The position numbers were made by a program, and so were the translations under genes. From NCBI RefSeq assembly GCF_002252665.1, contig NZ_NQKZ01000007.1, forward strand, positions 1 through 64,000: a stretch of DNA of 64,000 nucleotides, read 5' to 3'. The notes under the pieces were generated by a model. The model was not told the origin of the DNA. It did no database searches and saw only the letters and a list, made by a program, of their open reading frames with translations. Shown here piece by piece: positions 7,414 to 62,859 of this stretch. This stretch comes from Synechococcus sp. 8F6 (GTDB lineage: Bacteria; Cyanobacteriota; Cyanobacteriia; PCC-6307; Cyanobiaceae). Numbering within the stretch: position 1 is the stretch's first letter; each line of letters starts with the position of its first letter.

Positions 7414-7794
7414 ATGCAGGTGCAGGAGGGTGAGGGGTGGCGTTGGCTGGTGGATCCAGGCCGCCACCCCTTTGCTGTGTTGATCGGCGGCCAGGATTGG
7501 GCGGTGGAGCTGACCGCCGATGAGGCGCAGGGGCTGCAAGAGGGACTGGTCCACTTGGTGCAGGAGCATCACGGCCTGGTCGACCAGCTGATGGTGGAGG
7601 AGACGATCAGCCTGGAGCTGGAGCGGGGCCCGCTCTGGATGGCCCTGGAGGGCGGCCGAGAGGTGTGGCAGCTGCGGTTTGTGCTCACGCCGGCCTCACG
7701 GAGCCGGGCTGTGGAGGGCGGCTGGCGGCCCGAGGCCAGCGTGGCCCTGGTGGCCGCTCTCGTGTCGGCCTTGGCCCAGAACGATCCCAGCTGA
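7414..7794 (+). CDS. DUF1818 family protein
   Basis: A 126-residue cyanobacterial protein of unknown function. It has EGEGWRWLVDPGRHPFAVLI at the start, an acidic central part and RFVLTPASRSRAVEGGW near the end. It is soluble, with no signal or membrane segment. It lies 22 bp downstream of rpoZ on the same strand and is probably cotranscribed with it. Confidence 0.75.
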   Translation: MQVQEGEGWRWLVDPGRHPFAVLIGGQDWAVELTADEAQGLQEGLVHLVQEHHGLVDQLMVEETISLELERGPLWMALEGGREVWQLRFVLTPASRSRAVEGGWRPEASVALVAALVSALAQNDPS

Positions 7795-8132
7795 GACCCG
7801 GCCAATCTGGGTGTTGATCAGCAGTGCTGATCACGGTCGCTTTCCCGCTTGCCCCCCAAGAATCGCGGGTGTTTTGCCCAGGTTTTCCCCAGGCCAGGGG
7901 CCCGGATCTGGGTCTGGGGCTTGGCTCTGGGGAGAATGGTGCCGTTGTCTGCTTTCCCCTTGACAGCGCCCGCGGTTACCTCCCGCAGCGGCCCCGGCGG
8001 GGTGGGCCGGGTGCAGGTTCCTTGAGGGGCAGGCGATCTCAGCCTGGGAGCCCTGGTTGTAGGGCGTGGAACGGCGATTTGACGGTTGTGAGCGGATGTG
8101 GAGAACTGGTGCCAAGTCTTTGTTGAGCCCCA
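7795..8132. promoter_or_regulatory. 338-bp non-coding leader of the first DUF2811 gene
   Basis: No credible gene was seen here. The region holds a perfect 19-bp palindrome (7815-7833), a TTTTCCCCAGGCC element (7883-7895) that recurs upstream of the second DUF2811 gene, and a G-rich run around 7895-7940. The length suggests a regulated leader or a small RNA, but no RNA family was recognised. Confidence 0.5.
7815..7833. promoter_or_regulatory. perfect 19-bp palindrome
   Basis: TGATCAGCAGTGCTGATCA has two 9-base arms around a single G. It lies 20 bp after the DUF1818 stop codon and 300 bp before the DUF2811 start. It could be an operator or a hairpin. No T-run follows, so it is not an obvious terminator. 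Confidence 0.6.
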
Positions 8133-8420
8133 ATGGAGTTGCAGACCACTGTTGATGCTCGTCCAGCCAGCGTCGCCCAGGCTGCTGAGGAGCCTGAGTC
8201 AGCGGCTGCTGCGATGGTCAGCTTTCACGCCGAGGTGCCGGAGGTGCTGTTGGCGTCGATGCACGATTTCATGGCGCAGCATCCCAACTGGGATCAATAC
8301 CGCTTGTTCCAGGCAGCCCTCGCTGGCTTTCTGGTGCAGAACGGCCTGCACAGCCGCGGGGTGACCCGCTGCTATCTGGCCAATCTGTTCCCCGCCCAGG
8401 TCGGTTTCAGGAGCCCGTGA
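8133..8420 (+). CDS. DUF2811 family protein
   Basis: A 95-residue protein. The core from about residue 30 (FHAEVPEVLLASMHDFMAQH, then PNWDQYRLFQAALAGFLVQN and GVTRCYLANLF) matches the small cyanobacterial DUF2811 family of unknown function. The first 28 residues are a poorly conserved Ala- and Glu-rich tail, and the internal Met at residue 28 is an alternative start. A second member lies at 62031-62277. The 3' end overlaps the convergent membrane protein gene by 14 bp. Confidence 0.8.
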   Translation: MELQTTVDARPASVAQAAEEPESAAAAMVSFHAEVPEVLLASMHDFMAQHPNWDQYRLFQAALAGFLVQNGLHSRGVTRCYLANLFPAQVGFRSP

Positions 8421-62030: not shown

Positions 62031-62277
62031 TCAAGGCAGGGTTGGTAAGGGTGTCGGATCCTGGCGGCGAAACAGGCCATCGAGGTAGTGGCGGGCCACA
62101 ACGCGGTCCTGGCAGCCGTGCTGGAACAGGAAGCCGGCCAGGGCGGCCTGCATCAGGCGGTACTGGTCCCACTGGGGATGCAGCCGGACAAACTCCCGCA
62201 TCGCGTCGTAGAGGTCTTCCGGAAACTGGTTTTCGACCGAGACGGAGTTGGGGGGGGTGGTCCGGGATCTGGAGCAT
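62031..62277 (-). pseudogene. DUF2811 family protein, apparently frameshifted
   Basis: The conserved C-terminal part (PEDLYDAMREFV, HPQWDQYRLMQAALAGFLFQ and RVVARHYLDGLFRR) is open on the minus strand and matches the DUF2811 gene at 8133. No ATG, GTG or TTG lies in this frame within a sensible distance. The ATG at 62277 is in a different frame, and deleting one base from the eight-base G run at 62250-62257 (C run on the coding strand) would give MLQIPDHPPNSVSVENQFP in frame. I therefore infer a one-base indel, a real mutation or an assembly error. If an upstream start is used instead, the frame runs open to 62474. Confidence 0.6.
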
Positions 62278-62577
62278 GGAGGCGTTGCCCTGAGCGAGCC
62301 CCCATCAGGCCACGCCACTGGCTCCGCCGTCAAAGGGCGTCCCAACAGGCGAGTCCGGCAAGACCCACCGACCCCAGGCCCGGGCCACAGGCACTTTCGG
62401 GCTTTTTTCCAGTTTGGCGCGCGCTCGGAAGTCGCCTGCGCAGAAGCGTCAAGGGGCCGGCCCGTTTTCCCCATCCCCGGACTCAGACGGGTGATGGACG
62501 GGGCCCTTCCGCCTCTCCATCCCTGTGGAAAAGGCCTCTAAAGATTGGGGAGAAGCGACCCGGCCTGGGGAAAAGAT

Positions 62578-62592
62578 CACTGCTCAGCAGTG
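62578..62592. promoter_or_regulatory. 15-bp dyad upstream of the second DUF2811 gene
   Basis: CACTGCT C AGCAGTG is a perfect inverted repeat. GATCAC and GTGATC flank it at 62575 and 62593. The 19-bp palindrome at 7815 shares the core ideas TGATCA and AGCAGTG, but not the exact sequence. Confidence 0.5.
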
Positions 62593-62715: not shown

Positions 62716-62859
62716 ATGGCTGATTCCGCTTCCCGTTTCGGTTTTGTTGCCTTCGCTGAAACCTGGAATGGTCGCCTGGCCATGCTCGGTTTCGTGATCG
62801 GCCTCGGCACCGAGCTGCTCACCGGCCAGGGCATCCTGGGCCAGGTGGGTCTGGGCTGA
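62716..62859 (+). CDS. hli: high-light-inducible protein (one-helix, HLIP)
   Basis: 47 residues: MADSASRFGFVAFAETWNGR followed by LAMLGFVIGLGTELLTGQGI. The chlorophyll-binding motif ETWNGRLAMLGF is the single-helix LHC-type signature. These proteins protect pigment synthesis and photosystem II under high light, and NblS (27132) is a known regulator of the class. It is terminated by a strong hairpin. Confidence 0.95.
   Translation: MADSASRFGFVAFAETWNGRLAMLGFVIGLGTELLTGQGILGQVGLG

Follow-up and report, generated by a model that had tools for sequence, protein, structure and literature searches.

Partial accounts of E. coli and B. subtilis describe clusters of DnaA boxes outside oriC (datA and DARS in the former, the DnaA-box clusters in the latter) and regulators of DnaA such as Hda and YabA; SirA is another such regulator. 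At the nrdA-type promoters of E. coli, which DnaA regulates, closely spaced boxes lie upstream of the gene, and the E. coli protein binds best to paired boxes separated by 2-3 bp, equal to repeats of 11-12 bp (passages of PMC11317965). In cyanobacteria, the DnaA box is TTTTCCACA according to the relevant portion of PMC4674748, and excerpts of PMC6478999 describe ChIP-qPCR of DnaA at oriC in S. elongatus. Sections of PMC7198777 report that dnaA has been lost in free-living cyanobacteria and that several cyanobacteria keep DnaA although their replication is DnaA-independent; DnaA may regulate specific genes there, and its function "remains unclear". A term search of a review on DnaA as a transcription factor (PMC8203912) returned no words beginning with cyanobacter, Synechoc or DUF. 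Among the open-licence papers found, none names DUF2811, and titles and abstract starts hold nothing on DnaA boxes at a DUF2811-type gene; the literature retrieved on DnaA and its boxes deals with oriC, with the loss of dnaA and with other bacteria.

The window analysed here, 64,000 nucleotides of Synechococcus sp. 8F6, carries two DUF2811 genes that, according to an original prediction, share an element in unusually long upstream regions. Judging from sequence comparisons, we consider it probable that the shared element is a DnaA box, that the region upstream of DUF2811 is a DnaA-box array controlling the gene, and that DUF2811 belongs to the DnaA pathway.

Results

The two DUF2811 loci of the window

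The products of both genes match PF10929 (87.9 and 86 bits, cut-off 26.6), and the long non-coding upstream regions attributed to them are present: 338 bp separate the DUF1818 stop at 7794 from the ATG of gene 1 at 8133, and about 440 bp lie between 62277 at gene 2 and the start, near 62716, of a divergent small ORF that we take to resemble a high-light-inducible protein. The features of the gene 1 locus are the following.

7815..7833, no strand assigned: palindrome TGATCAGCA-G-TGCTGATCA with perfect 9-nt arms, 5' of the gene 1 array
7872..7880, plus strand: degenerate DnaA box TTTTGCCCA, one mismatch to TTTTCCCCA
7883..7891, plus strand: predicted DnaA box TTTTCCCCA, exact match, core of the 13-mer
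7928..7936, minus strand: inverted DnaA-like box TTCTCCCCA, 45 bp 3' of the 7883 box
7960..7965, plus strand: probable -35 element TTGACA, of the TTGAC(A/G) type conserved in Cyanobiaceae upstreams
8097..8105, minus strand: inverted DnaA-like box TTCTCCACA, just 5' of the start codon
8133..8420, plus strand: DUF2811 gene 1, 95 amino acids (PF10929, E = 5.6e-25)

The degenerate box at 7872 lies 11 bp 5' of the 7883 box; none of the main array spacings is shorter. Pairs of plus and minus boxes 44-46 bp apart, of the 7883/7928 type, recur in relatives, and the TTCTCCACA box, 214 bp from the main box in the window, lies 215-216 bp from it in 7 of the 16 named loci shown. The gene 2 locus, read from the minus strand, is arranged as follows.

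62578..62592, minus strand: imperfect palindrome CACTGCTGAGCAGTG, adjoining the gene 2 array, present in most gene 2 orthologues shown
62566..62574, minus strand: predicted DnaA box TTTTCCCCA, exact match, core of the second 13-mer
62546..62554, minus strand: DnaA-like box TTCTCCCCA, one mismatch
62524..62532, minus strand: predicted DnaA box TTTTCCACA, 42 bp from the first box, a recurrent distance (42-44 bp)
62465..62473, plus strand: inverted predicted DnaA box TTTTCCCCA, exact match, just 5' of the -35 element
62447..62452, minus strand: probable -35 element TTGACG, by TTGAC(A/G) conservation
62031..62277, minus strand: DUF2811 gene 2, domain and likeliest start region (PF10929, E = 2.1e-24)

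The three same-strand boxes of gene 2 (62574, 62554 and 62532), the middle one degenerate, are spaced by 20 and 22 bp, and a distance of 58-59 bp between plus and minus boxes was found in eight pairs from relatives. A scan for the sigma-70 consensus gave no full promoter in either upstream region of the window. The open frame of the gene 2 domain extends to 62474. At 62250-62277 on the minus strand, the ATG used by gene 2 relatives, in most of them 12-13 codons 5' of the domain, is out of frame with the DUF2811 domain, and a run of C lies between; relatives have intact copies. The frame offset could reflect an assembly error, slippage or another start, and the start of gene 2 is accordingly given as uncertain. 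The two window genes are convergent and 54 kb apart (8220-62240). Convergent DUF2811 pairs 55-60 kb apart also occur in G001, G005, G012, G014 and G015, and wider ones in G004 and G006.

Both dyads ascribed to these regions are real, with arms at 7815-7823 and 7825-7833 (9 nt, 100%) at gene 1 and six pairs at 62578-62592 at gene 2, and TGGG and TTGATCA stand 5' of each of them. By eye, the three paralogue groups of the genus all have ATCAGnnnTGCTGAT-type sequence at a similar position, and the dyad next to the array is, as a separate element, also conserved across the genus. The unequal distance between dyad and element that had been pointed out is there; as we read it, it arises because the two 13-mers are not positional equivalents: the 13-mer of gene 2 is an extra, dyad-proximal box, and the gene 1 box at 7883-7891 is matched, by its distance from the dyad, by TTTTCCACA at 62524-62532.

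The shared element is a 9-mer that precedes DUF2811 genes in relatives

The 13-mer TTTTCCCCAGGCC was confirmed at 7883-7895 on the plus strand and at 62562-62574 on the minus strand. These are its only exact copies in the 2,509,577-base genome, both at the DUF2811 genes of the window; the reversed control pattern has none. The shorter TTTTCCMCAGG has three genomic sites, all within the upstream regions of the two window genes, and TTTTCCMCA has 17 sites, its reversed control 10. Of these 17, five lie upstream of the genome's three DUF2811 genes, the third of which, on contig C22, is preceded by TTTTCCCCA at a distance of about 340 bp. What is conserved is the 9-mer TTTTCC(A/C)CA with a G after it, rather than the 13-mer; this G is present in 76% of 124 exact boxes.

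All counts of boxes given below refer to related genomes. Exact boxes, in which position 7 may be A or C, were present upstream of 45 of 46 DUF2811 genes of the genus, 11 of 13 of the family and 11 of 12 of the class, where 50 dinucleotide shuffles led us to expect 0.68, 0.26 and 0.30, respectively. These counts do not refute the original prediction, against which background frequency, or a lack of conservation upstream of orthologues, would have told. In a larger set, the exact box preceded 63 of 66 Cyanobiaceae genes, 70 of 73 others from the class and all five from family f16, that is, 138 of 144 DUF2811 genes in genomes not known to lack dnaA; genomes known to lack it were counted apart. 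Six upstream regions of this set are without an exact box (L016, L019, L071, L073, L092 and L168). At least two exact boxes were found in 93 of the 144 (31 Cyanobiaceae, 57 other class and 5 f16). L035, a duplicate of the place of L003, was left out of these counts, as was the second piece of the split G147 gene (L167).

Exact boxes mark 64 of 80 named loci. In 15 of the 16 without one, a box with a single mismatch lies close to where the exact box usually stands; L236 lacks even that. Upstream of the gene the loci have 3.70 boxes per kb, in their other parts 0.11 per kb. Position 7, which is A in the classical box, is C in 55% of the 124 boxes and in about a third of the larger set. Some DUF2811 paralogues are without boxes. 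Plasmid copies of the gene, drawn from the 13 plasmid records found, have boxes upstream in five of seven cases; large plasmids of Nostoc, Aulosira and Acaryochloris (L251-L255) carry DUF2811 with boxes upstream.

In the box-anchored alignment, which is blurred because the distance from box to gene varies, conservation extends for about 220 bp before it reaches background. By eye, many of the class loci shown (L006, L105 and L116, for example) have a TTGYAATTCTTATCATT-like block 5' of the array, and members of the genus have the ATCAGCACTGCTGAT palindrome 5' of theirs.

Boxes are helically phased and followed by a conserved -35-like motif

Boxes on the same strand are spaced mostly by 11, 21-22, 32-33, 42-44, 53-54 or 64-65 bp. 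These distances follow multiples of about 10.75 bp (Rayleigh R 0.87, n = 248 pairs), figures that are indicative only, as the 229 upstream regions used include loci duplicated under different identifiers and the rows are not independent. The largest number in one upstream region is nine boxes (G084). An inverted box often follows 44-46 or 58-59 bp further on. Of 66 Cyanobiaceae upstreams, 62 contain TTGAC(A/G), where simple shuffles give 7.65; outside that family, 74 of 78 class upstreams contain TTGACA, where such shuffles give 8.15. The order is thus boxes, then often an inverted box, then TTGAC(A/G).

The site HLR1 (GTTACA-N4-KTTACA), associated with RpaB, was absent at 11 of 12 letters or better from all 66 Cyanobiaceae DUF2811 upstreams. 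Perfect or near-perfect HLR1 sites occur in 20 of 82 upstreams from outside the Cyanobiaceae, against 1.5 in crude shuffles, and lie on the reverse strand in 19 of the 20 (L009, L029 and L090, for example). They may represent a light input to DUF2811. Examples related to HLR1 are given in part of PMC6331805.

The boxes agree with those of oriC

The dnaN-side oriCs of G027, G028 and G034 have phased arrays of the same boxes as DUF2811 upstreams. Exact boxes are few at the oriCs of the window's genus, and in the source genome three exact boxes lie upstream of gene 2 and one upstream of dnaN. Cyanobiaceae dnaN upstreams L075-L078 and L080 contain 0-2 exact boxes, fewer than some DUF2811 upstreams of the same genomes.

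Family f16 offers a case of covariation. All 34 of its DUF2811 boxes, from five of five genomes, read TTATCC(A/C)CA, a form taken by 9 of 299 elsewhere, and the box of the one f16 oriC compared (G039) is TTATCCACA. In an alignment of DnaA, the residue preceding a conserved R-Q is P in four f16 proteins and A in the remaining 12; this column is near the DNA-binding region and is one of nine clade-specific columns in the last 150. E. coli DnaA, whose box is TTATCCACA, likewise has P at the f16-specific column.

DUF2811 is mostly missing where dnaA is missing

DnaA (PF00308) was present in 283 of 289 class genomes searched, and a DUF2811 match in 373 of 388, a number that includes the 289. The 15 genomes without DUF2811 include five of the first six found to lack dnaA. 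It was predicted in advance that ten DUF2811-less genomes, eight further ones of this set together with G023 and G017, would also lack dnaA. The prediction proved right for all eight; G023 and G017 have dnaA. Both states are known for 367 genomes. Among the 18 that lack dnaA, 13 are without DUF2811, two have a pseudogene and three an intact gene, and 347 of the 349 dnaA-positive genomes have a DUF2811 match (Fisher p 6e-22, or 2e-20 with G023 and G017 added, relatedness being ignored). Two doubtful matches in dnaA-positive genomes were counted as present, namely G147 (split, in two frames) and G270 (weak). The dnaA-positive genomes without DUF2811 are G023 (99% complete), G017 (85%) and the fragmented assemblies G050 and G158; in G050, G158 and G017 the absence may be due to poor assembly. 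Searches of the 289 genomes also gave eleven Bac_DnaA matches in G113; among the other 282, G152 has two and the rest have one.

The genomes lacking dnaA are spread over at least eight groups (genera g87, g89, g155, g90, g144, g134 and g132, and family f34). Members that have both dnaA and DUF2811 also occur in g87, g144, g90 and g134. Joint deletion is an unlikely cause of this pattern, because dnaA and DUF2811 are non-adjacent in the 11 genomes compared. Intact DUF2811 genes persist in dnaA-less G157, G329 and G369, so the gene either is not strictly dependent on DnaA or is still decaying there.

The arrays of five dnaA-less genomes, two of them with pseudogenes, have 0, 0, 1, 1 and 1 exact boxes, versus a mean of 2.64 in other class upstreams. 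The single boxes belong to G329, G369 and the G309 pseudogene. No box is left in G157, whose sister G287 has three. In dnaA-positive G306, from the genus of G329 and G369, there are two, a contrast that is weak because dnaA-positive G086 of the same family also has one box.

The DUF2811 protein

A first AlphaFold model of DUF2811 is poor (pLDDT 64.6) and a second one good (86.6), with three predicted helices. Foldseek returned no match for either model at E <= 0.001. VIA-align compared 71 chains and scored highest (Z 3.4) for one from an assembly intermediate of the human mitochondrial small subunit, which leaves no clear match in the PDB. Profile searches yielded no ribbon-helix-helix Pfam match among 48 members, and no solved relative; such a fold was suggested by a pattern in the sequence, and we leave it open rather than claim it. 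NCBIfam contains no family at E <= 0.001. A phage origin was considered and rejected: DUF2811 was absent from the phage collection, and no PHROG matched at E <= 0.001. The one viral contig with DUF2811 has no boxes in the 900 bp upstream.

Discussion

Box sequence, helical phasing, covariation with the oriC box and loss together with dnaA lead us to conclude, with good confidence, that the regulator shared by these genes would be DnaA. A shared regulator or a regulatory RNA had both been put forward for the two loci; the first idea gains in this way a likely name, and the second is left without support. The long upstream regions and a hairpin with a T run at 62592-62578 would suit an RNA. Yet at Rfam gathering thresholds the window yields nothing besides a tRNA, one terminator-like site compares with 0.8 in shuffles, and conservation is confined to short blocks, so we regard a regulatory RNA made from this region as very improbable. 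No more credence is due to the idea that the region upstream of DUF2811 serves the chromosome as another origin, additional or alternative to oriC. It has the boxes and the phasing of oriC; on the other hand, in 11 genomes every DUF2811 gene is more than about 80 kb away from dnaN and dnaA, genomes of the genus have several DUF2811 copies, and trio-like runs occur in 1 of 229 DUF2811 upstreams versus 6 of 11 dnaN stretches, by a crude pattern that misses the other 5 of the 11. Such runs are seen at dnaN in L079 and L081-L085, within about 30 bp of a box in L082-L085. Position, copy number and the near-absence of trio-like runs led us to reject the second origin.

Two further explanations accept the boxes as binding sites. 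The arrays might be reservoirs of DnaA, of the datA or Bacillus cluster type, that lie near DUF2811 by chance and act on the availability of DnaA. The arrays are box clusters outside oriC, with three exact boxes at gene 2 and a single one at dnaN in the source genome, and an array of up to nine boxes (G084) could titrate DnaA. Against this, the boxes track the gene to several chromosomal places and to plasmids, stand in fixed order upstream of a conserved TTGACA, and belong to a coding gene that is mostly lost along with dnaA. We consider a chance reservoir unlikely, and favour control of the gene over titration because boxes accompany several chromosomal copies and five of seven plasmid copies; the two functions are compatible and not exclusive. 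Alternatively, the boxes could be bound by another protein, for instance DUF2811 itself, which would then regulate its own gene or compete with DnaA at oriC. The C at position 7 of many boxes, the second conserved palindrome beside the array in the genus and the small, predicted helical DUF2811 protein would all be in keeping with this. The switch from T to A at position 3, parallel to that of the oriC boxes, and the loss with dnaA fit DnaA directly, and a DNA-binding fold was not recognised in DUF2811, although this last point is weak evidence. We judge a binder other than DnaA to be decidedly unlikely.

Under control by DnaA, the sequence of events might be as follows. DnaA would assemble on the array, starting from the strong boxes, and would thereby change initiation at the downstream TTGAC(A/G) promoter, so that the level of DUF2811 would follow that of active DnaA. 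DUF2811 in turn would act in the DnaA pathway, most likely by limiting or tuning initiation at oriC through feedback, a role we infer because the gene is lost together with dnaA. As to the sign of this feedback, our guess leans mildly towards negative, with positive a serious contender. Put in its fullest form, DUF2811 would be an unrecognised, near-universal partner of cyanobacterial DnaA: a small protein controlled by DnaA through the array, feeding back on initiation, whose gene, after the loss of dnaA, decays within the span of a genus. For this fuller proposal the balance of belief is about even. We know of no such DnaA regulator in cyanobacteria.

Because DnaA boxes lie upstream of nearly all DUF2811 genes and lineages without dnaA have tended to lose the gene, DUF2811 is a strong candidate for a component of replication control that has gone unrecognised in cyanobacteria. 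It offers a concrete candidate target for DnaA where replication does not need it, and a candidate for how cyanobacteria tune initiation.

Comparison with described systems sets the locus apart in several respects. By its proposed role as a small partner tuning DnaA, DUF2811 is alike to Hda and YabA, in so far as partial accounts describe them; the likening to these and to SirA is by proposed role, not by sequence or fold. The arrays are, like E. coli datA and DARS and the B. subtilis clusters (described in part), groups of boxes outside oriC, but they follow a gene family, even onto plasmids, rather than a chromosomal position. With nrdA-type promoters of E. coli they have in common closely spaced boxes upstream of a gene (parts of PMC11317965), although here the boxes precede a cyanobacterial gene without known function, which is for the most part present where dnaA is present and whose regulation we infer only. 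Cyanobacterial oriC arrays at dnaN, as covered in part of PMC4674748, share the 9-mer, the 11/21-bp phasing and, in one f16 oriC, the variant box. Unlike them, the DUF2811 arrays lie away from dnaN, have almost no trio-like runs, commonly show C at position 7, occur in several copies per Cyanobiaceae genome, and are attached to a probable DUF2811 promoter.
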